Assembly (NCBI GenBank): GCA_021739625.1
Contig: JAIPBJ010000027.1
Location: 1-35,117, forward strand
Direction of reading: 5' to 3'
Origin: Flavobacteriales bacterium
GTDB taxonomy: Bacteria; Bacteroidota; Bacteroidia; UBA10329
Length of the DNA stretch: 35,117 bases
The stretch's first letter is position 1. Each line of letters starts with the position of its first letter. Under the pieces are notes generated by a model. That model worked only from the letters and a program-made list of their open reading frames with translations, made no database searches and was not told where the DNA came from. This document shows, piece by piece, positions 21,377-35,117 of the stretch. A program made the position numbers and the translations under genes.

Positions 21377-21649
21377 GAATTCTGACCTTGTTCTTGGGAA
21401 TTCCACCCTCGTTTTCCAGAATTCCTCCCTCGTTTTCCAGAATTCCACCCTCGTTTTCCAGAATTCCACCCTCGTTTTCCAGAATTCCACCCTCGTTTTC
21501 CAGAATTCCTCCCTCGTTTCTCAGAATTTCTCCCTCGTTTCTCAGAATTTCTCCCTCGTTTTCCAGAATTCCTCCCTCGTTTCTCAGAATTCCACCCTCA
21601 TTTTCTGGAATTCCTCCCTCGTTTCTCGGAATTCCTCCCTCGTTTTTGG
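21377..21649. repeat. 21-base minisatellite, 12 clear copies plus one degenerate copy
   Basis: The unit is gaattccaccctcgttttcc plus a, repeated head to tail from 21398 to 21649. A diverged copy precedes it at 21377-21397. Copies differ mainly at the a/t after 'gaattcc' and at 'ttttcca' versus 'tttctca'. Ten of the twelve contain an EcoRI site. Because 21 is divisible by three and the unit lacks stop codons, all six frames are open, giving apparent heptapeptide ORFs such as 'IPPSFSR' and 'NSTLVFQ' that I regard as spurious. It fills the otherwise empty stretch between two minus-strand genes and begins 14 bases after the upstream gene's stop. Confidence 0.92.
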
Positions 21650-22785: not shown

Positions 22786-22965
22786 TCAATGCGCCCTGTC
22801 GGTGCTGCATTCGGCCTTGTCGCCACACGCACCGCAGCACCCGCTGGTGCGGTCGATGTGGTTCTTCACCTTCATCTTCTTGGCAATGATCTGCTGGGCC
22901 ATCCAACCGCCCGCCAACAGGGCAAGACCTATCACTGGCAATAGATATTCCAAGTATGTTCCCAT
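22786..22965 (-). CDS. Small membrane protein with a cysteine-rich tail
   Basis: The 59 residues start MGTYLEYLLPVIGLALLAGGWM, one transmembrane segment. A basic stretch (AKKMKVKNHIDR) follows, then the tail 'GCCGACGDKAEC' with four cysteines. This plan resembles FeoB-associated Cys-rich membrane proteins and other small 'membrane or secreted' Bacteroidota proteins, and the tail may bind metal. The ATG at 22965 starts the hydrophobic segment directly; a frame running to 23064 adds 33 unlikely residues. No neighbouring iron-transport gene is seen, so the function is open. Confidence 0.6.
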   Translation of the reverse strand: MGTYLEYLLPVIGLALLAGGWMAQQIIAKKMKVKNHIDRTSGCCGACGDKAECSTDRAH

Positions 22966-23169
22966 GGTGTGATGGTGTTGATGCCTTATGAAGGAAAGGA
23001 GTGCCCCGAAGGGCCACGCAAGGTAGAGGGCCGCAAAGACCCCTTTGCTGACAATTGTCACCACCAGGGCCGAACGTCAGGCCCAGCGGCCAATGGAGGC
23101 GAAATGTCCTGACCATGTAACCGTAGGGGCCGTACAACGGTTAAATGACGGACATATCTATCAGGGACC

Positions 23170-26004: not shown

Positions 26005-26583
26005 TCAATGCGACCCGAAAAGCCCGGCAAACCCCATGAAACCGAGCGATATGATGCCCGCAATGATGAGGTTGAGCGCAGTGCCCTGCACCATCTTGGG
26101 AATGTTGAGGATGCGGGTCTCCTCGCGCACTGCCGCCAGCAGCACCAGTGCAATGGTGACACCCCCGCCAGCCCCCAGCGCATAGACCATTCCTTCAACG
26201 AATCCATAGCCCTTGTTGGTCGTGAAAAGGGCAAGGCCCAGAATGGCGCAGTTGGTGGTGATGAGCGGCAGGAAGATGCCCAATGCCTTGAACAGGTCGG
26301 GACTGAGCTTCTTGATGGCCATCTCCACGAATTGCACCGCACTGGCAATGACGATGATGAAACTGATGAGGCGCAGATAGGGCGCATGGATCAGCACCCA
26401 GGTGTTGAGCACGTAGGCCGCCACCGCAGTGATCATCATCACGAAGATGTTGGCAAGCCCAAGGCGGAAGGCCGTTTCCAGCTTCTGGGTCACGCCCAGA
26501 AAAGGGCAGAGGCCCAAGAACATCGACAGGGTGAAGTTGTTCACCAACAGCGCAGAGATGAATATCCAGACCAGCTCGTTCAT
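26005..26583 (-). CDS. rnfA: Rnf electron-transport complex subunit A
   Basis: This 192-residue inner-membrane subunit of the Rnf (ferredoxin:NAD+ oxidoreductase, ion-pumping) complex has about six transmembrane helices. Signature stretches are 'NNFTLSMFLGLCPFLGVT', 'LISFIIVIASAVQFVEM' and 'LPLITTNCAILGLALF'; the cysteines at about 25 and 112 are those thought to hold an iron-sulfur centre between RnfA and RnfE. The ATG at 26583 overlaps the rnfE stop (ATGA). A longer frame to 26691 lies within rnfE and was not used. It is the last gene of the operon. No hairpin terminator is visible in the 45 bases before the convergent phosphatase gene. Confidence 0.93.
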   Translation of the reverse strand: MNELVWIFISALLVNNFTLSMFLGLCPFLGVTQKLETAFRLGLANIFVMMITAVAAYVLNTWVLIHAPYLRLISFIIVIASAVQFVEMAIKKLSPDLFKALGIFLPLITTNCAILGLALFTTNKGYGFVEGMVYALGAGGGVTIALVLLAAVREETRILNIPKMVQGTALNLIIAGIISLGFMGFAGLFGSH

Positions 26584-27215
26584 GACGGTTGTTGGGTTCT
26601 GAGTTTCCTGCGCTGTTCCACCCAACTGAAGATCAGCAGCAGGAATCCCAAGGTGAAAAAGCCACCGGGAGGCAGTATCATGATGATCCACGGTTCATAG
26701 CCCGCACCGAACAGGTCGATACCGAATAGCGAACCATTGCCAAGCACCTCTCTGATGCCGCCAAGGCTCAGCAGGGCGAAGGTGAATCCCAGACCCATGC
26801 CCGTGGCATCGGCAACGGCAAGGCCAATGGGATGCTTACTTGCAAACGCCTCCTGCCGTCCGAGTATGAGGCAGTTCACAACGATCAGGGCGATGAATGC
26901 CCCCAGTTCCTTGTGAATGGCCGGGAGAAAGGCCTCCAATGTGAAATCGACAGCCGTAACGAAAGTGGCGATGATGACGATGTAGGTGGTGATGCGCACA
27001 GGCTTCGGAATCACATTGCGCAGCAGCGAGACCAGCGCGCAAGAACCGATGAGCACGAAGGTCGATGCCAGCCCCATGGCAATGCCGTTGATGGCACTGT
27101 TGGTAACCGCAAGCGATGGGCACATGCCCAGCACGGCCACAAACACAGGGTTCTCCTTCCACAGTCCCTTGAGAAACTCTTTGCCCATTACAGGACTGTC
27201 GTTGCTATCGGCCAT
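26580..27215 (-). CDS. rnfE: Rnf electron-transport complex subunit E
   Basis: This 211-residue inner-membrane subunit is homologous to RnfA but of inverted topology. It shows 'ENPVFVAVLGMCPSLAVTNSAINGIAMG', 'PKPVRITTYIVIIATFVT', 'FIALIVVNCLILGRQEAFA' and 'DATGMGLGFTFALLSLGGIREVLG'. The cysteines in 'LGMCPSLA' and 'VVNCLILG' are the counterparts of the RnfA pair. Its start is four bases after rnfG, and its stop overlaps rnfA. The hydrophilic C-terminus (VEQRRKLRTQQPS) is short. Confidence 0.93.
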   Translation of the reverse strand: MADSNDSPVMGKEFLKGLWKENPVFVAVLGMCPSLAVTNSAINGIAMGLASTFVLIGSCALVSLLRNVIPKPVRITTYIVIIATFVTAVDFTLEAFLPAIHKELGAFIALIVVNCLILGRQEAFASKHPIGLAVADATGMGLGFTFALLSLGGIREVLGNGSLFGIDLFGAGYEPWIIMILPPGGFFTLGFLLLIFSWVEQRRKLRTQQPS

Positions 27216-27219
27216 GTTC

Positions 27220-27885
27220 CTATGGATTGACGGGTGAGGGATTTGCTGTCAGGTACCTGTCGATGGGGGCCTTCCATTTCTCCATCGATCTGTTCAACAG
27301 TTTCACAACAGTCTTGGACGAGATGGTGGCACCCGTGATCGCATCCACCTCGTTGGGCTGCTGCTTGGCGCCATTCTTCACCAGCACGATCTCCGGTTCC
27401 ACGGCCAGCGCTGTGAAATTGGCCACAAAGGCCGTATTCTTGAAGATCTTGTCGCCAAGTCCGGGCGTCTCCTTACAGTCCAGCACCTGATAGCCGATGA
27501 TGCGCCTGTTCACTGCGTCATAGCCGTAAAGCACACCGATGATGTCCTGAAACCCCGACTCCTTGCCGCTGATGGCGAATCCGGTCATCGCGTTCTGGTC
27601 ATTCAGGCCCAGGAACACCGATTCTTCTCCGGCCTTGTCGGCTTCGGTCAGTTCCCCGTTCTCAAGCACCAGGGTCTTGAAGGTGGTGGTGCCGGGCAGC
27701 ACCGTGAAAATGGCCTCGCGCATGGCATCGGCCTTGTTCTGTTCGATGATGGGCTTGGTGAACAGATAGACGCTCACCAGTATGAGCCCCGAAACAAAGC
27801 CCGCAAAGCTGAGCGTTCCTATCAGTTTGAAGGAACTGGGTTCCACCTCCTGCTCAGGGTCGATATGTGTCTGTTGCTCGCTCAC
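27220..27885 (-). CDS. rnfG: Rnf electron-transport complex subunit G
   Basis: This 221-residue membrane-anchored flavoprotein has one N-terminal transmembrane segment (about 21-43). The FMN is expected to be bound covalently to Thr187 in the motif 'DAITGATISS'. 'DCKETPGLGDKI' (about 136-147) is also typical. The start is GTG at 27885, overlapping the rnfD stop as GTGA; the open frame reaching 28230 lies inside rnfD and is not used. The N-terminal 20 residues before the membrane segment are polar and acidic (EQEVEPSS). Confidence 0.92.
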   Translation of the reverse strand: MSEQQTHIDPEQEVEPSSFKLIGTLSFAGFVSGLILVSVYLFTKPIIEQNKADAMREAIFTVLPGTTTFKTLVLENGELTEADKAGEESVFLGLNDQNAMTGFAISGKESGFQDIIGVLYGYDAVNRRIIGYQVLDCKETPGLGDKIFKNTAFVANFTALAVEPEIVLVKNGAKQQPNEVDAITGATISSKTVVKLLNRSMEKWKAPIDRYLTANPSPVNP

Positions 27886-28886
27886 TTGTATCCGTAGGGT
27901 TTGATCTTTGTGAATCGGTTGATGATCGGTGTGCATGAGTTCATCAGCAGAACCGCATACATCACCCCTTCGGGCAAGCCTCCCCAAAGTCTTATGAGCA
28001 CCACGAAGAACCCTATGCCGAAACCATAGATCCATAGTCCTCGGGGCGTGATGGGCGAGGTGACAAGGTCGGTGGCCATATAGACCGTTCCCAATAGCAG
28101 CCCTCCCGACAGCACCATGAACAGGGGCGATGGATAGGCCTTGCTGTCCATAAGCCAGAAGATACCTGAGAAAACGATCACTGTGAGCAGAATGGACAGT
28201 GGAATGCGCCAGTTGATCAACTTGCGCCAAACGAGGTACAGTCCGGCCAGCAGGAACAGGATGGCACTTGTTTCTCCCAGCGAACCGCCTACGTTGCCCC
28301 AGAGCAGATCGGTGTAATCGGTGGCCAGCTTCTCAAACTTCATCTGCGCCAGCGGAGTGGCCGAACTGACCGCATCCACATTGTGCCCTTGAAAGAAAGG
28401 CAATGCCGCATTGGTGCCTCTGAAAGAAAGATACTGCCCGTCAGGTGCAGACCAAGTGGTGATGGCCGATGGGAATGCGGCCTGCAGGAACGCTCGGCCC
28501 AGCAATGCGGGATTGAAAACGTTCTGTCCAAGTCCGCCCCAGATGAGCTTGCCCATGCCAATGGCCACGACACTGCCAAGGAAGGCCATCCACAGCGGGA
28601 ATCCCGGAGGAAGGCAAAGGGCCAACAGAATGCCGGTGATCAGGGCACTGCCGTCCTTGAGCGATGCGCCCTTGCTGCCCGATGTGCTGAAAACGTATTC
28701 GGTGGAGACACACCCCGCAATCGTGGCAGCGATGACGCCCAAAGCACCGAGCCCGAAAAAATAGTAGGCCGCCCCGACCATCGGCATCAACGAGATCACC
28801 ACTTCCCACATGATGCGCGGGGTGGTGTCGCTACCGTGCAGGTATGGCGATGTGGAAACGGTTATCCGCTTGGTCTCCGGTCTCAT
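27882..28886 (-). CDS. rnfD: Rnf electron-transport complex subunit D
   Basis: This 334-residue inner-membrane subunit has about eight to ten transmembrane helices. It shows 'VSTSPYLHG', 'GSALITGILLALCLPP', 'LGQNVFNPALLGRAFL' and 'GTVYMATDLVTSPITPRG', all family hallmarks. The FMN-linked threonine is predicted to be Thr177 in 'SSATPLAQ'; the usual Gly before Ala-Thr is Ser here, a minor change. Its ATG overlaps the rnfC stop (ATGA), and its stop overlaps the rnfG GTG start. Confidence 0.93.
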   Translation of the reverse strand: MRPETKRITVSTSPYLHGSDTTPRIMWEVVISLMPMVGAAYYFFGLGALGVIAATIAGCVSTEYVFSTSGSKGASLKDGSALITGILLALCLPPGFPLWMAFLGSVVAIGMGKLIWGGLGQNVFNPALLGRAFLQAAFPSAITTWSAPDGQYLSFRGTNAALPFFQGHNVDAVSSATPLAQMKFEKLATDYTDLLWGNVGGSLGETSAILFLLAGLYLVWRKLINWRIPLSILLTVIVFSGIFWLMDSKAYPSPLFMVLSGGLLLGTVYMATDLVTSPITPRGLWIYGFGIGFFVVLIRLWGGLPEGVMYAVLLMNSCTPIINRFTKIKPYGYK

Positions 28887-30235
28887 GCTGCCTTTGCTTT
28901 TTCTCTTGCCATACGCTCGCGCAACAGTCCTTTACTGACCCGGAAACTCTGCACCAACGGAATGGCCGATGGGCAGACAAAGGAACAGCTTCCACACTCG
29001 AAACAGTCGAACAGGTGGTTCTCCTCCATTTCTTCCCACAGCCCTTTCTTGGCCAGAAGGCCCAGCAGTGAAGGATTGAGATGGATGGGACAGGCATCCA
29101 CACACTTTCCGCAGCGGATGCAGCTGTACTCGTCCAACGACCGCACCTCTTTGTCGGTGAGGATCAGAATGCCAGAGGTGCCTTTCACCACAGGGATGTT
29201 CAGTGATTTCTGCACCATGCCCATCATAGGGCCGCCCAAAAGGATCCGGCAGGCGTCATCCTTAAGTCCACCACAGAAATCCACCACCTCGCGCATCGAT
29301 GTTCCGATGGGCACCAGCAGGTTCGATGGCCTGTTGATGGCCGTCCCGGTCACAGTCACCACCCGCTCCACCAATGGAATGCCTTTGCGGAACCAATGGC
29401 TGAGGGCGGCAATGGTGCTGATGTTGGACACCAAGGCCTCCATGTCGAGCGGCAGTTTGCCCGATGGCACCTCTTTGCCCAGTATGGCGGTCAGGAGCAT
29501 CTTCTCTGCGCCCTGCGGATACTTGACCTTCAGCGAAACGACCTCTGCGGGCAGTGCCGTGGCTGCAATCTTCCTTGTCATCTCTGCAATTGCATCGGGC
29601 TTGTTGGCCTCAATGCCGATGAAGATCTTCTCTGCCCTGATGTGATGCTGAAGAATGGCGATGCCGTCCACAATGGCATCGGCCTGCTCCACCATGGTGC
29701 GGTGGTCTGAGGTAAGAAAAGGCTCGCACTCACAGCCGTTGAGCATGATGTAGCGGCAGGTCTTTCCTTCGGGTATGGCAAATTTCACGTGTGCAGGGAA
29801 TGCGGCCCCGCCCAGACCGACAATACCGGCCTGCTGCACCGATGAGACGAATTCCTTGACGGTCATCTCCTCGGGCGCCTTTGGAGGTGTAAGATGGAAC
29901 TGTTGGGTGGAGAAGGCGTCAGTTCTGATCCTGATGGCAGGTGCCATCTGACCTGATGGGGTCTCCGTCAGTTCTATGCCGGTGACGACACCATCGACTG
30001 GCGCGTGCATGGCCACCGAAACGAATCCACCTGCCTCGGCAATCATCTGTCCGCGCTTCACCACATCGCCTTTCTTGACGATGGGCTTGCATGGTGCCCC
30101 AATGTGCTGGCTCAACGGAAGCACATATTCTTCCACAAAAGGCATCCGCTCGATGGGGCACGAGGAGGTGAACTCCTTGTACTCCTCGGGGTGAATCCCG
30201 TGACTGAAAGTCATATTGCTGTCAATGCCTAACAT
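28883..30235 (-). CDS. rnfC: Rnf electron-transport complex subunit C
   Basis: This 450-residue peripheral subunit is the NADH/NAD+-reactive part of Rnf, with FMN and iron-sulfur centres. 'GLGGAAFPAHVK' (about 140-150) and 'NGCECEPFLTSDHR' belong to the FMN/NADH-binding domain. Two [4Fe-4S] motifs lie at Cys372/375/378/382 ('CIRCGKCVDACP') and Cys411/414/417/421 ('CFECGSCSFVCP'). The ATG at 30235 is preferred because GGAG lies five bases upstream; an ATG seven codons later is the alternative. It follows the PFOR-like gene by 37 bases and overlaps rnfD. Confidence 0.93.
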   Translation of the reverse strand: MLGIDSNMTFSHGIHPEEYKEFTSSCPIERMPFVEEYVLPLSQHIGAPCKPIVKKGDVVKRGQMIAEAGGFVSVAMHAPVDGVVTGIELTETPSGQMAPAIRIRTDAFSTQQFHLTPPKAPEEMTVKEFVSSVQQAGIVGLGGAAFPAHVKFAIPEGKTCRYIMLNGCECEPFLTSDHRTMVEQADAIVDGIAILQHHIRAEKIFIGIEANKPDAIAEMTRKIAATALPAEVVSLKVKYPQGAEKMLLTAILGKEVPSGKLPLDMEALVSNISTIAALSHWFRKGIPLVERVVTVTGTAINRPSNLLVPIGTSMREVVDFCGGLKDDACRILLGGPMMGMVQKSLNIPVVKGTSGILILTDKEVRSLDEYSCIRCGKCVDACPIHLNPSLLGLLAKKGLWEEMEENHLFDCFECGSCSFVCPSAIPLVQSFRVSKGLLRERMAREKAKAA

Positions 30236-30272: not shown

Positions 30273-33200
30273 TTATCTGGCCGCTGCCATTTTCATCAAC
30301 TTCTCTTTGAGCTGCGCCCGTACCTTTTCCAAATGGGCTGCTTCTGCATTCTTCATGCTTTCGGCATGGAGAGTAGTCAATTTCTCCTGTTCGGCCTCAT
30401 ATTTTATACTCAGTTCGCGCTCTGCCGTGGCATAGACCTTCTCTGGGAATTCTGCCAGCGTGCCAGCAATCTCACGCACTGTCATCCATGCTTTGAGGGC
30501 AGCCTCGGTTTCACCCACGATAGCGGCCGGAACAGTATGATGCTGCAGTTCGCCCTTGGAACCGGTGCGGACGATCACGGGCACCTTGCCTTTGCGTTCT
30601 GCGCTCTGCAATCTTATGAACTGCGCCACGTGCATCGGTTCGCCCATCGCCTCGTTCCATAATGTGAAGGACGACTTCCGGTTCTGCCCCGTATAGGCCC
30701 AATCTGCGTAGGTGACCTTATATGCCATCACCTTTTCCTGACCATCCTCCATGTAGCTCAGTTCGCTGACGCACCATTCAGCGTCTGACGAAGGATTGAC
30801 ATCGATGCTCATTTTCGGGAACAGCAGTGTGCTTTCCCTGTTCGGGCTGTAATCGAATTGGATATATGCGCGGCTGTTGGATGCCAAGGAGTGAAGCAGT
30901 TGCATGTTGCCGTGCTCTCCGTCAGGGGTCAACAGCCGTATCACCGAACTGTCGCAGTTTCCCAATGCGCTCACCAGTCCATCGAACAGATGGTCGGGAT
31001 CGGCCAACGAGCCTTGGATCACCCGCACATTGCGTAGGGCAATGAATGGTATGAGGGCCATGGCATCGTGCATCATGTCGGCAATGGCGGTGTGTTCTGG
31101 CGGGTTGACATTGTCCAGCAGGATCACTTTTATGGGCAGCCCTTCGGCCAGCAACTGAGCAAGTGTGTTGGCACCATTGCTCTGTAAAAGTGATTTCCTC
31201 GCAATGAGCAGCATGGGAGGAACGAACGTCCGTTCCTGATCACTGAGGTCGGCCCACGAGAGGTCTGCGATCGCATGGTCGTGATGCGCGGGATTGTATT
31301 TGCCTGTTTCTTCCAACGTGGCCCTGCGCAGCACTTTGATGTTCTCCAGAACATGGCGCAGATGGCCCTGTATCAGCCCTTTCGCCATTTCGGCCGATGA
31401 GCCATCAAAGCAGAGGACAGGAACAGTGAAACAGTTGTCGGGGAAAGTTGCCAGTTCGGCCAATGAGGAATCAAGGGCAATGCAATAGCGGGCCCGTCCT
31501 GTTCCTGTGGCCCCCGACACGATCAGGTCTTTGAGGTCGTGCAGTTCCTTGATGATGTCTGATTTCCTTGAGAGTGAGGCCCTGTCCAGCAATCGTAGAT
31601 GGCGGGCATCGCTCTGGCTCTCTAAAATCTCATCGATGGACACCTTGGCAGTGGTGATCCTGTCAAGCGCACTGCCCAATCCGTTGTCAATCGCTCCGGG
31701 AAGTGCATCGCTGAGCTGTTTCTTCAGATTGGCAGCGATATTCTCAATCTTCTCCCCGATCACCTTTTCCATGGCCTTGAAACCGGGCTGCACCATCGCC
31801 TCGGCCACCGCAGCGACCGTATGGATCATCGCCTTTTCAGATACCCGCGTGTTGGCAGTTGCACCGGTCATGGACATGTAGAAATTCCTGCTCAGCATCA
31901 GGGCTGCCAACGATGGATATTGCCGATCGGCCATTAGCCGCTGAATGGTCTCGGAAGAAGTGTCCGGCAATTGCTCCCAAAGAGCAAACTGCTTTTGAAG
32001 GGATGCATGCTGCTCCTCATTCTCATCGGCCATGCTCAGAGCACCATCGGGGCACACGGACGCGCAGATGCCGCATCCCACACATGCGCTCGGGTCAATG
32101 GCAAGGCTGAAAAGCTCCTTTGCCCCATCATTGAAGAATGTGCCGTTGGCCACCACCTGAAAATCTCCGATGGCCGCTGCAATGGCTTTGAACTCGGCTT
32201 TGAAGGCATCTGCCTTTTCTGCCTGAGGTTTCACCTGTTCCAGCAATTGGTCGAATGCCGGGGTAAGGATCTCACGGAGCATCAGCGAGGAATTCCCAGC
32301 ATTGACGATGGCAGGGATGACCTTGTTGGCCGTCTTGGCAAGATTCTTCACCTGTGGGAACAGTTGAGTGATGTTAACACCGTTGGCCTGTGCCTTTGCT
32401 ATGCCCGACTTGAGAATGGCCTCCATGTCCAACGCCACAGGCGGAATGGCCGCATGTGGGCAGTGAACAAAGCAGTCCCCACATCCTGTGCATTTGGAAC
32501 TGTCGAGCACCGGCACCGATTTCCGCGCCTCAACTGAATGACCGAGACCTGCCGATGCAGAAGGCATTGAAGGGGTGGACTGAAATGGGTCGGCAGTCCA
32601 ATCGGCACTGTCGGTGCCATAGAAAGGGGCCGTGTTGTCGAAGAAGTTGGACAGACGGGAATGGATCGGCCCCTGATTCTTGAACCTCCGCAACGACAAT
32701 GGAATAAATGCGGGAGGAGCAATGGCAGTGCCGTTGGTCGTAGGGTTAGGCACCAACGCCCCGCGATCGGCAAGCTGCGGATAGTCCCGTTTGATGGTCT
32801 GAAAGACCGATTGCCTTTTCGGGAACTCCGAACTTTCGTTGATGTGAGGAATATCGAGAAGGAAATGGTCGGCCTTCAGCTCATTGCGCTCAATACGACC
32901 AATGAAATCCTGAAGATTTGCCGATGCAGGCGAATGGGCATATTGTGCTGAACGGAGCTGCACAGGTCGGCCAGCAAATGTTTCGCACAGCCTTGGGAAC
33001 AATGTGCAGTGCTCATCGGTCAGCTGCTCCACCACCGCAATGCTACTGGCCTTTCCGCATCCGGTCATCAATGTTGAAGGCACGGGATGGTACTGTTTGA
33101 GCAGAACAGCACCAAGCTTGGACCTGCCTTTCAACGTGGCTGTCAGATTGAAAACGTGCCTGTTGTCGCTGAAGATGATCAGGTCTGCCCGATCGGCATC

Positions 33201-33947
33201 TTTCGCAAGGAAGGCCTGATGTTTTCTGATGAACTGTTTTTCAAACTCTCCGAACGTTTGGGCTATGAATTCTTCGACATGCTCGGTGAAAAAGGCCCTG
33301 TGGGCTGCGGCCTGATAGGAGATTCCTTTGGCCGATTTCTGGGCACCGGTCAGCACTGGAATGTCTGCATTGAACTGCTTCGGGATCCTTCTCCTTGTCT
33401 TTCCGAAAAGCATCAGCTGCGATGAGGTGGGTGCGGGGATCCTGTTTCCTCCGTCTCCTAGAAACTCGAACAGCTGGTGGTTCTCAGGAACTACCGGAAT
33501 CGTGTCATCATCATCTGCGATGCGGAACACCACCGCACCGGGAATGAGTGCCAGTTCGGACACGCGGTGGGCAATGATGGTGAGGTCGATGAGTTCCTGA
33601 GCATCGGATGCGAACAGTACGAAGGCCCCGGAATTGGCAAGCCGGGCGGCCATTGCGACCGGGGCCGCCACGACCATAGGTGTCAGATTGCGCACAGCCT
33701 GATGCAGCGTGTGGATGTTCTCGGCCGTGTGTTCGGTGCCGATCCATGCCGAGCAGCGCATTCCACAGGTGCTCATGCCAGCCACGAAAGCAAGATTCCC
33801 AGTGGGGGAGAGCGCTGTTGTGGTTCCGGTCATGTTGCGGCCGGCAGTCTGGTGGGCATCGGGCATGCTCAGACCTTCACTGATCCTGCCCTCCAATTTG
33901 AGCCATGCCTGCTGATAGGATTTCATTGCTTCCATGCAGATGTTCAT
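30273..33947 (-). CDS. Degenerate PFOR-like protein within the rnf operon
   Basis: This 1224-residue protein has the length and domain order of pyruvate:ferredoxin oxidoreductase (PFOR). Residues about 40-240 match PFOR domain I ('SGAFVLFASDAQELIDLTIIAHRVSELALIPG'). Two ferredoxin motifs lie at Cys486/489/492/496 ('CTGCGDCFVHCP') and Cys622/625/628/632 ('CVGCGICASVCP'). The C-terminal part follows the domain VI outline: 'LAEGLPIKVILLDNV' stands where PFOR has 'VLVLDTEVYSNTGGQ', and 'LLHSLASNSRAYIQFDYSP' matches its end. The thiamine-diphosphate motif (GDGW and NTGGQ) is absent, and the CxxC of the proximal cluster, expected near residue 690, is replaced by 'SRNFYMSMTGATANT'. It therefore probably carries electrons but does not oxidise 2-oxoacids. 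A charged coiled coil ends the protein. Its ATG overlaps the rnfB stop (ATGA). Confidence 0.85.
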   Translation of the reverse strand: MNICMEAMKSYQQAWLKLEGRISEGLSMPDAHQTAGRNMTGTTTALSPTGNLAFVAGMSTCGMRCSAWIGTEHTAENIHTLHQAVRNLTPMVVAAPVAMAARLANSGAFVLFASDAQELIDLTIIAHRVSELALIPGAVVFRIADDDDTIPVVPENHQLFEFLGDGGNRIPAPTSSQLMLFGKTRRRIPKQFNADIPVLTGAQKSAKGISYQAAAHRAFFTEHVEEFIAQTFGEFEKQFIRKHQAFLAKDADRADLIIFSDNRHVFNLTATLKGRSKLGAVLLKQYHPVPSTLMTGCGKASSIAVVEQLTDEHCTLFPRLCETFAGRPVQLRSAQYAHSPASANLQDFIGRIERNELKADHFLLDIPHINESSEFPKRQSVFQTIKRDYPQLADRGALVPNPTTNGTAIAPPAFIPLSLRRFKNQGPIHSRLSNFFDNTAPFYGTDSADWTADPFQSTPSMPSASAGLGHSVEARKSVPVLDSSKCTGCGDCFVHCPHAAIPPVALDMEAILKSGIAKAQANGVNITQLFPQVKNLAKTANKVIPAIVNAGNSSLMLREILTPAFDQLLEQVKPQAEKADAFKAEFKAIAAAIGDFQVVANGTFFNDGAKELFSLAIDPSACVGCGICASVCPDGALSMADENEEQHASLQKQFALWEQLPDTSSETIQRLMADRQYPSLAALMLSRNFYMSMTGATANTRVSEKAMIHTVAAVAEAMVQPGFKAMEKVIGEKIENIAANLKKQLSDALPGAIDNGLGSALDRITTAKVSIDEILESQSDARHLRLLDRASLSRKSDIIKELHDLKDLIVSGATGTGRARYCIALDSSLAELATFPDNCFTVPVLCFDGSSAEMAKGLIQGHLRHVLENIKVLRRATLEETGKYNPAHHDHAIADLSWADLSDQERTFVPPMLLIARKSLLQSNGANTLAQLLAEGLPIKVILLDNVNPPEHTAIADMMHDAMALIPFIALRNVRVIQGSLADPDHLFDGLVSALGNCDSSVIRLLTPDGEHGNMQLLHSLASNSRAYIQFDYSPNRESTLLFPKMSIDVNPSSDAEWCVSELSYMEDGQEKVMAYKVTYADWAYTGQNRKSSFTLWNEAMGEPMHVAQFIRLQSAERKGKVPVIVRTGSKGELQHHTVPAAIVGETEAALKAWMTVREIAGTLAEFPEKVYATAERELSIKYEAEQEKLTTLHAESMKNAEAAHLEKVRAQLKEKLMKMAAAR

Positions 33948-34837
33948 TGATAATAGGTTCCCTCATCATACTGGGTGGACTCCACTCTTCCGACAGACAG
34001 TGGAGACTTCCTGTCGGCCACGAACTGCCGGTCGTTATCAAGCCATGTTATGGCCCCTGTGGGACACCGGCCAATAGCAAGGGCCGAGGTCAGTTCGTTC
34101 TGACCATAGTCTATCACGGGCAGGTTGTTCTTCATGCTGATTACTCCGGGCAGCGCATCGGCAGCGCATCGGCCGCATGCATTGCAGGCCACCGAACAGC
34201 GTGACAGGGCCTCATCGCCCTCCAGCAGCGAACGGCATTGCACCACAAGTTTCTGACTGATGGGCATGAGCACGAACAATTGTTTCGGACAGACTTCCAC
34301 ACAGTCGTTGCAGGCCACGCATTTGTCAATGTCCACCACCGGAATGTTGTTCCCATTCATCTGAATGGCACCGAAATCGCAGGACACGGCACAGTCGCCC
34401 AGACCCAGACATCCCCAGTTGCAATCCTTTGTTCCGCCCGAAACGATGGCCGCCCCCCGGCAGGTGTTCAATGTGCCTGCATATTGCGCCTTCACTGGCG
34501 ATTCCATGGCCCCACCTGCGCATAGCAAACGTGCCACGGTCTTTTCCCCACTTCCTGCATCCACACCAAGGAAGGCTGCGATTTTTCCCACACCTTCGGG
34601 TGTGCTCACGGTGCATTTGCCCGGAGCAGCCTCCTTGTTCACTACGCGTTCGGCAAAGGCACGGCAGCCCGGAGATCCGCAGGCACCGCAGTTGGCACCC
34701 GGCAGCATCACCTCCACCTTATCTATCCTCGGATCTTCCTGCACCTTCAGTTTCTTGTAGGCAATGGCAAGAATGGTCGAGAACAGGAGTCCCAGCCCGG
34801 TGAGGATGATCAGCGATATGGCGACCTGGTCCAGCAT
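33944..34837 (-). CDS. rnfB: Rnf electron-transport complex subunit B
   Basis: This 297-residue subunit takes electrons from ferredoxin. One N-terminal transmembrane segment (about 5-27) is followed by the Fe-S ('four-cysteine') domain, with Cys50, Cys53, Cys58 and Cys75 ('GANCGACGSPGC'). Further cysteine sets are at about 126-153 ('DCNWGCLGLGDCAVSC'), 173-183 ('CVACNDCVEVCP') and 201-224 ('CSVACNACGRC'), with a last Cys at about 258. This fits several [4Fe-4S] clusters. The start is two bases after the preceding gene's stop, and the stop overlaps the PFOR-like gene. The tail beyond about 265 is polar and specific to this form. Confidence 0.93.
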   Translation of the reverse strand: MLDQVAISLIILTGLGLLFSTILAIAYKKLKVQEDPRIDKVEVMLPGANCGACGSPGCRAFAERVVNKEAAPGKCTVSTPEGVGKIAAFLGVDAGSGEKTVARLLCAGGAMESPVKAQYAGTLNTCRGAAIVSGGTKDCNWGCLGLGDCAVSCDFGAIQMNGNNIPVVDIDKCVACNDCVEVCPKQLFVLMPISQKLVVQCRSLLEGDEALSRCSVACNACGRCAADALPGVISMKNNLPVIDYGQNELTSALAIGRCPTGAITWLDNDRQFVADRKSPLSVGRVESTQYDEGTYYQ

Positions 34838-34839
34838 GG

Positions 34840-35117
34840 TCAGTTCAAAGCTGCGGCCACCTTCATCAGCTCGTCAAGGCCGGGTTCGTCAGAATTCTGT
34901 GGCAGACCTGGATGGATGCACTTGGCAGGACATTTCTCTGCAAGGGCCACAATCTTTCCGAACGTGCCTCCCTTCGGATTGTGTACAAATGATTGTTTAT
35001 CGCTGTTGTACTTGAACACTGCTGGCAGCTGATCGATACAGTCATTGCAGGTGGTGCAGCGGAAGGTCTCCACCCAGACCTCTGCACTCACTTCGGCCTG
35101 TTCTTCCTGCACTGGAG
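34840..35117 (-). CDS. C-terminal part of a ferredoxin-domain protein, cut by the window edge
   Basis: The frame enters from the right edge without a stop, so this is only the 3' end of a longer gene. A GTG at 35112 could be a start but has no support. The visible 90 or so residues form a ferredoxin-like domain with 'FRCTTCNDCIDQLP', 'VFKYNSDKQSFV', 'GGTFGKIVALAEKCPAKCIHPG' and a short helical tail ('GLDELMKVAAALN'). I recall this type of ferredoxin domain (including 'YN.NKQ' and 'IHPG') at the C-terminus of large PFOR-like proteins, so the full gene may be one of those. It is the first visible gene of the rnf operon, two bases before rnfB. Confidence 0.75.
   Translation of the reverse strand, partial: PVQEEQAEVSAEVWVETFRCTTCNDCIDQLPAVFKYNSDKQSFVHNPKGGTFGKIVALAEKCPAKCIHPGLPQNSDEPGLDELMKVAAALN

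Follow-up and report, generated by a model that had tools for sequence, protein, structure and literature searches.

The Rnf complex, a ferredoxin:NAD+ oxidoreductase that acts as an ion pump, is generally understood to use diffusing ferredoxin. Enzymes that act on 2-oxoacids include the two-subunit KorAB type (TIGR03710, TIGR02177) and the PFOR/NifJ type (TIGR02176; 6cin, 1b0p). Giant PFORs of ~1,630 aa, found in several phyla, terminate in a Fer4_13 ferredoxin domain, and they adjoin rnf genes in operons here called type I, such as those of Persicobacter (L003) and Methylotuvimicrobium buryatense (L065). Ferredoxin I of Desulfovibrio africanus (1dax, 1fxr) is a Fer4_13 protein with one [4Fe-4S] site and four cysteines.

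The operon described here has the order korA-korB-X-rnfB-Y-rnfC-D-G-E-A. It contains all six genes of the Rnf complex, but it differs from the usual Rnf operon in that rnfB and rnfC are separated by a degenerate PFOR (Y) and that korA-korB-X precede rnfB. Compared with two-subunit KorAB, whose genes lie directly upstream of X with their motifs intact, a third, putative pseudoenzyme subunit with its own ferredoxin has been added. X shares the ferredoxin tail and the rnf linkage with the giant PFORs, and its residues 336–672 are homologous to their TPP domain (E ~1e-60); however, it lacks their catalytic motifs, domains I–V and the two-cluster domain, and it is accompanied by separate KorA and KorB proteins. 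Its fold relationship to PFOR/NifJ is distant and runs through the giants, and it has no TPP site, proximal cluster or match to the TIGR02176 family model. The ferredoxin of X is tethered to a large protein, whereas that of D. africanus is free. Rnf, KorAB, PFOR and Fer4_13 are each known; a description of such an operon, in which they are combined with two putative PFOR-related pseudoenzymes, was not found in the largely open-access literature searched.

Gene organization and contig join

The window (the whole stretch of DNA analysed, 35,117 bp) is the complete contig C30 of a genome (G000) that is 95.9% complete. All six rnf genes (B, C, D, G, E, A) were found together in it. A 91-aa frame at 34840–35115 on the minus strand is open at the window edge; it reads ...FRCTTCNDCIDQLPAVFKYNSDKQSFVHNPKGGTFGKIVALAEKCPAKCIHPG... 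and holds CTTCNDC, YNSDKQ and CPAKCIHPG. Because the window is a complete contig, nothing lies to its right in the assembly, and direct reading was impossible. The end of contig C76 was found as the second match when the genome was searched with the 1,224-aa protein Y. The last 27 nt of C76 are the first 27 nt of the reverse complement of the window, in frame, and a whole-genome search located this 27-mer only at the ends of C30 and C76. The joined frame is gene X (835 aa), which is uninterrupted in an identical gene order in the relatives L102 (G076) and L103 (G065). A plain ferredoxin of 100–150 codons, named by the first-pass annotation as the outcome that would overturn its proposal, was thus ruled out as the identity of the gene. 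The features are as follows.

34840..35117, minus strand: 3' end of gene X (aa 745–835 of 835), by the unique in-frame 27-nt overlap; whole in L102 and L103
Contig C76, L008:14494-16750, plus strand: 5' part of gene X, by the same contig join
34906..35058, minus strand: C-terminal one-cluster ferredoxin core of X (Fer4_13; cysteines at aa 764, 767, 770 and 806)
33944..34837, minus strand: rnfB (TIGR01944, 70.1 bits; cut-off 68.7)
30273..33947, minus strand: gene Y, encoding a degenerate giant PFOR in which TPP motifs, domain III and the ferredoxin tail are missing (motif alignment against 16 catalytic giants)
32460..32492, minus strand: first retained [4Fe-4S] motif of Y, CTGCGDCFVHC (aa 486–496)
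32052..32084, minus strand: second retained [4Fe-4S] motif of Y, CVGCGICASVC (aa 622–632)
28883..30235, minus strand: rnfC (RnfC_N, Complex1_51K, SLBB), the only full RnfC_N match of the genome
27882..28886, minus strand: rnfD (NQR2_RnfD_RnfE, E 4e-111)
27220..27920, minus strand: rnfG (FMN_bind); 5' end approximate, as the listed frame begins too early (relatives ~220–240 aa)
26580..27215, minus strand: rnfE (Rnf-Nqr)
26005..26583, minus strand: rnfA (Rnf-Nqr), starting at an internal ATG

By their coordinates, korB and X are separated by 6 nt, rnfB starts 2 nt past the X stop, and the frames of rnfB and Y share 4 nt. KorA, upstream on C76, scores 527.7 bits against TIGR03710 (cut-off 482.75). 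KorB scores 232.5 bits against TIGR02177, below the cut-off of 261.9, and keeps the TPP motif GDGD and the cluster cysteines (WCPGCG, GIGCSS); the catalytic motifs of the korA-korB pair are intact. KorA contains RGGPSTGLPTK, which we take to resemble 2-oxoglutarate-type enzymes. Judged by sequence, catalysis is supplied by the separate upstream korA and korB, which belong to the general 2-oxoacid class and not to PFOR. The first-pass annotation had pictured a catalytic and a degenerate PFOR copy beside an ion pump; the degenerate one exists as Y and the presumed operon does hold a catalytic oxidoreductase, but the catalyst is KorA/KorB and not a PFOR copy. The genome also encodes E1 components of the PDH, OGDH and BCKDH types, the names of which were assigned from length and score. 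Since OGDH- and PDH-type E1 components are present, it is not evident why KorAB would be needed.

Elsewhere in the window, a 21-bp unit, GAATTCCTCCCTCGTTTTCCA, is repeated about 12 times in an array at positions 21398–21646, and positions 22786–23064 (minus strand) encode a small protein rich in cysteine, whose N-terminal half is hydrophobic and which contains CCGACGDKAEC and has no Pfam match. A similar small Cys-rich stretch lies near apbE of the Gemmatirosa operon (L002, ~11.3 kb).

Protein X

The ferredoxin domain that had been proposed at the visible end of the gene was confirmed: the three motifs quoted above are present, and Fer4_13 matches with 33.8 bits (Pfam E 5.6e-8; curated cut-off 24.5), the four cysteines of a Fer4_13 ferredoxin (CxxCxxC...C) being in place. 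The nearest solved structure by sequence is D. africanus ferredoxin I (1dax, E 2.4e-4). The proposed likeness to the C-termini of large PFOR-type proteins in other phyla also proved correct, as the same terminal ferredoxin is found in all 16 aligned giants (e.g. CTSCDECxxI...EKCTAxVIHPG).

The remainder of the protein is different. GDG, GDGW and NTGGQ, which are TPP-binding motifs and two of which (GDGW and NTGGQ) the first-pass annotation had named as the motifs to look for in the full gene, are absent from the joined 835-aa X, including its continuation on C76, and no proximal-cluster cysteines occur at the aligned positions of the TPP domain. Residues 1–752 have no Pfam or NCBIfam match, and PFOR domains I–V with two [4Fe-4S] motifs were not found there. 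A profile of four X proteins matches the giant PFORs over positions 336–672 (E ~1e-60) and again over the ferredoxin; therefore, X is a relative of the C-terminal (TPP) half of the giants plus the ferredoxin tail. The alignments indicate that X is degenerate kin of the domain VI half of a giant PFOR, with the ferredoxin retained and a poorly conserved N-terminal part.

None of the aligned X proteins has TPP motifs or proximal-cluster cysteines. The ferredoxin is their best conserved part, with 38–71% identity to that of the window, compared with 13–29% for the N-terminal 335 aa. All 19 X proteins above 700 aa carry it, and five shorter ones do not (two myxococcal proteins and those of Gemmatirosa, the planctomycete CA13 and Marivirga). 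In a tree of the TPP-like region, X, Y and the giants form three groups with Y nearest the giants, although some rows are long-branched and the bootstrap values are unsettled.

Protein Y

In the alignment, Y and ten relatives show none of the motifs for substrate and TPP that mark domains I and VI, no proximal cysteines and no ferredoxin tail, and domain III is missing in most of them. TPP and proximal-cluster motifs are found in none of the aligned X and Y proteins, compared with 16 of 16 giants. Both CxxCxxCxxxC motifs of the ferredoxin-like domain are retained in 10 of the 11 Y proteins; the Y protein of L167 shows neither. An AlphaFold2 model of Y (aa 25–1224) has a mean pLDDT of 49.8, which is too poor for a fold search. 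An apparent Y-RnfC fusion in L179 was rejected because its long frame proved to be a spurious extension rich in GC; Y apparently lies in another frame. In a set of 395 genomes of the class, probably Bacteroidia, Y-type proteins were found only in X-bearing genomes, and the close Y relatives (G065, G076 and the window's genome) are all accompanied by X and korAB.

Distribution and relatives

X lies directly 3' of korB, within ~125 nt, in 24 of the 26 loci examined (21 from one locus set together with the window's genome, L080 and L002). The exceptions are L162, in which the two genes are 2.4 kb apart, and L164, in which no korB frame was found. rnfB comes after X in 14 loci. The loci span Bacteroidota, Calditrichota, Planctomycetota, Myxococcota, Gemmatimonadota, Acidobacteriota and Gammaproteobacteria, while window-type operons with Y occur in Bacteroidota, Calditrichota and one gammaproteobacterium. 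Named isolates with korA-korB-X are Algoriphagus kandeliae, Robertkochia marina and Flagellimonas lutimaris. The visible end of X and Y have no match in eight other species of the genus (G001–G008); therefore, the operon is patchy, which may reflect gain by transfer or repeated loss.

A scan of species genomes in which the Persicobacter giant served as query yielded 80 loci; in nearly all of those with enough flank, the giant adjoins rnfC or rnfB. In these type I operons, the catalytic giant bears the same ferredoxin tail as X. The window-type RnfC is separated from that of type I in a tree (support 83/69; 80% of bootstrap trees). In a Lewinellaceae MAG (L078), a window-type operon is followed directly by a type I operon, so that two complete rnfCDGEA sets stand in tandem, one with Y and the other with a catalytic giant PFOR. 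L190 (6007–10647, G347) and L191 (5827–10497, G051) hold giant PFORs of a second kind (1,547–1,557 aa; GDGG and NTGGQ intact). These two proteins share 36–37% identity with the Persicobacter giant; they lack the ferredoxin tail, no rnf genes adjoin them in the DNA read, and they are a natural outgroup to the Rnf-linked giants.

RnfC is present in 6 of the 7 X-bearing genomes found without selection for giants (G570 being the exception), and a strong RnfC_N match (E < 1e-20) occurs in 13 of the 198 sampled class genomes; no probability is attached to this comparison because related species are not independent. RnfC was also found in 24 of the 25 X-bearing genomes tested, most of which had been selected for Rnf-linked giants. 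Several korA-korB-X sets lie away from rnf genes. In L180, korA-korB-X with the ferredoxin is followed by another korA-korB pair, and the genome concerned (G570) gave no RnfC match.

Discussion

We propose, at about even chances, that KorAB feeds electrons from a 2-oxoacid through the tethered ferredoxin of X, together with Y, into Rnf. Using CoA, KorAB would oxidize 2-oxoglutarate or a broad range of 2-oxoacids, and the dead PFOR-like domain of X would dock KorAB so that the tethered ferredoxin accepts electrons from the KorB cluster. Y would serve as a scaffold and electron wire at the site held by the catalytic giant PFOR in the sister operons, and the electrons would pass to RnfB and RnfC, where NAD+ would be reduced and ion pumping by RnfDGEA driven. 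We infer the binding of X to KorAB, the electron path with or without Y, the ion pumping, its direction and the substrate; physical coupling to the pump is suggested by gene order and domain content. The membrane-coupled 2-oxoacid oxidation system envisaged by the first-pass annotation would survive in an altered form, through KorAB and not through a catalytic PFOR.

The mechanism is supported by the position of X after korB (24/26) and of rnfB after X (14 loci), by the retention of GDGD and the cluster cysteines in KorB, by the absence of TPP and proximal-cluster motifs from all aligned X and Y proteins while 16 of 16 giants keep them, and by the ferredoxin being the best conserved part of X. 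It is also supported by the type I giants, which carry the same tail next to rnfC or rnfB, while the two giants without rnf neighbours are tail-less, as well as by the separate window-type RnfC, by the restriction of Y to X-bearing genomes among the 395, and by the frequency of RnfC in unselected X genomes (6/7, against 13/198). The five X proteins without ferredoxin and the L167 Y protein without both cluster motifs count against it, as do the OGDH- and PDH-type E1 components of the genome. So do the korA-korB-X set of G570, which has no RnfC match, and the several sets that lie apart from rnf genes, so that X may also work independently of Rnf. A more specific arrangement, which is possible but somewhat less probable, is that KorAB is physically docked on Rnf by the two PFOR-related pseudoenzymes, X bringing the terminal ferredoxin and Y the two-cluster wire. 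This would be a one-piece 2-oxoacid:NAD+ ion pump, parallel to the sister system with a catalytic giant PFOR at the same place.

The same complex might run in reverse: Rnf would use the ion gradient and NADH to deliver low-potential electrons through X to KorAB, where they would serve reductive carboxylation or another biosynthetic purpose. Rnf can work in both directions, and it can also reduce ferredoxin with NADH by consuming the ion gradient (PMC7414866). In addition, this genome has OGDH- and PDH-type E1 components for the oxidative reactions. The reverse direction is nevertheless unlikely, as Rnf is combined in the type I operons with PFOR-like enzymes, which are usually oxidative in heterotrophs. 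X could instead be a subunit with a built-in ferredoxin in a soluble KorAB-X enzyme independent of Rnf, the rnf linkage then reflecting only that both use electrons at the ferredoxin level. In favour of this, G570 has korA-korB-X without RnfC and several sets do not adjoin rnf genes. However, 14 loci have rnfB immediately after X, the window-type operons place Y between rnfB and rnfC, and nearly all tested X genomes possess RnfC, though most were chosen for Rnf-linked giants; we therefore regard a soluble enzyme as improbable too.

The proposal that the missing part of the X gene encodes a catalytic PFOR drew on the C-terminal ferredoxin common to X and the catalytic giants. What the gene encodes is instead another degenerate protein, which lacks TPP motifs. 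The joined 835 aa contain no GDG, NTGGQ or proximal cysteines, no family in Pfam or NCBIfam matches residues 1–752, and besides the two KorA genes the only POR_N match of the genome is a weak one in Y. A catalytic PFOR is refuted unless the contig join is false, and we consider it exceedingly improbable.

The electron path from KorAB through X and Y to Rnf can be tested in the named isolates that carry korA-korB-X or the giant-PFOR-Rnf sister operon. If it is correct, some bacteria would wire a specific 2-oxoacid-oxidizing enzyme straight to the Rnf pump and would conserve energy that NAD-linked dehydrogenases do not conserve, and X and Y would be a clear case of pseudoenzymes retained as electron-transfer scaffolds.
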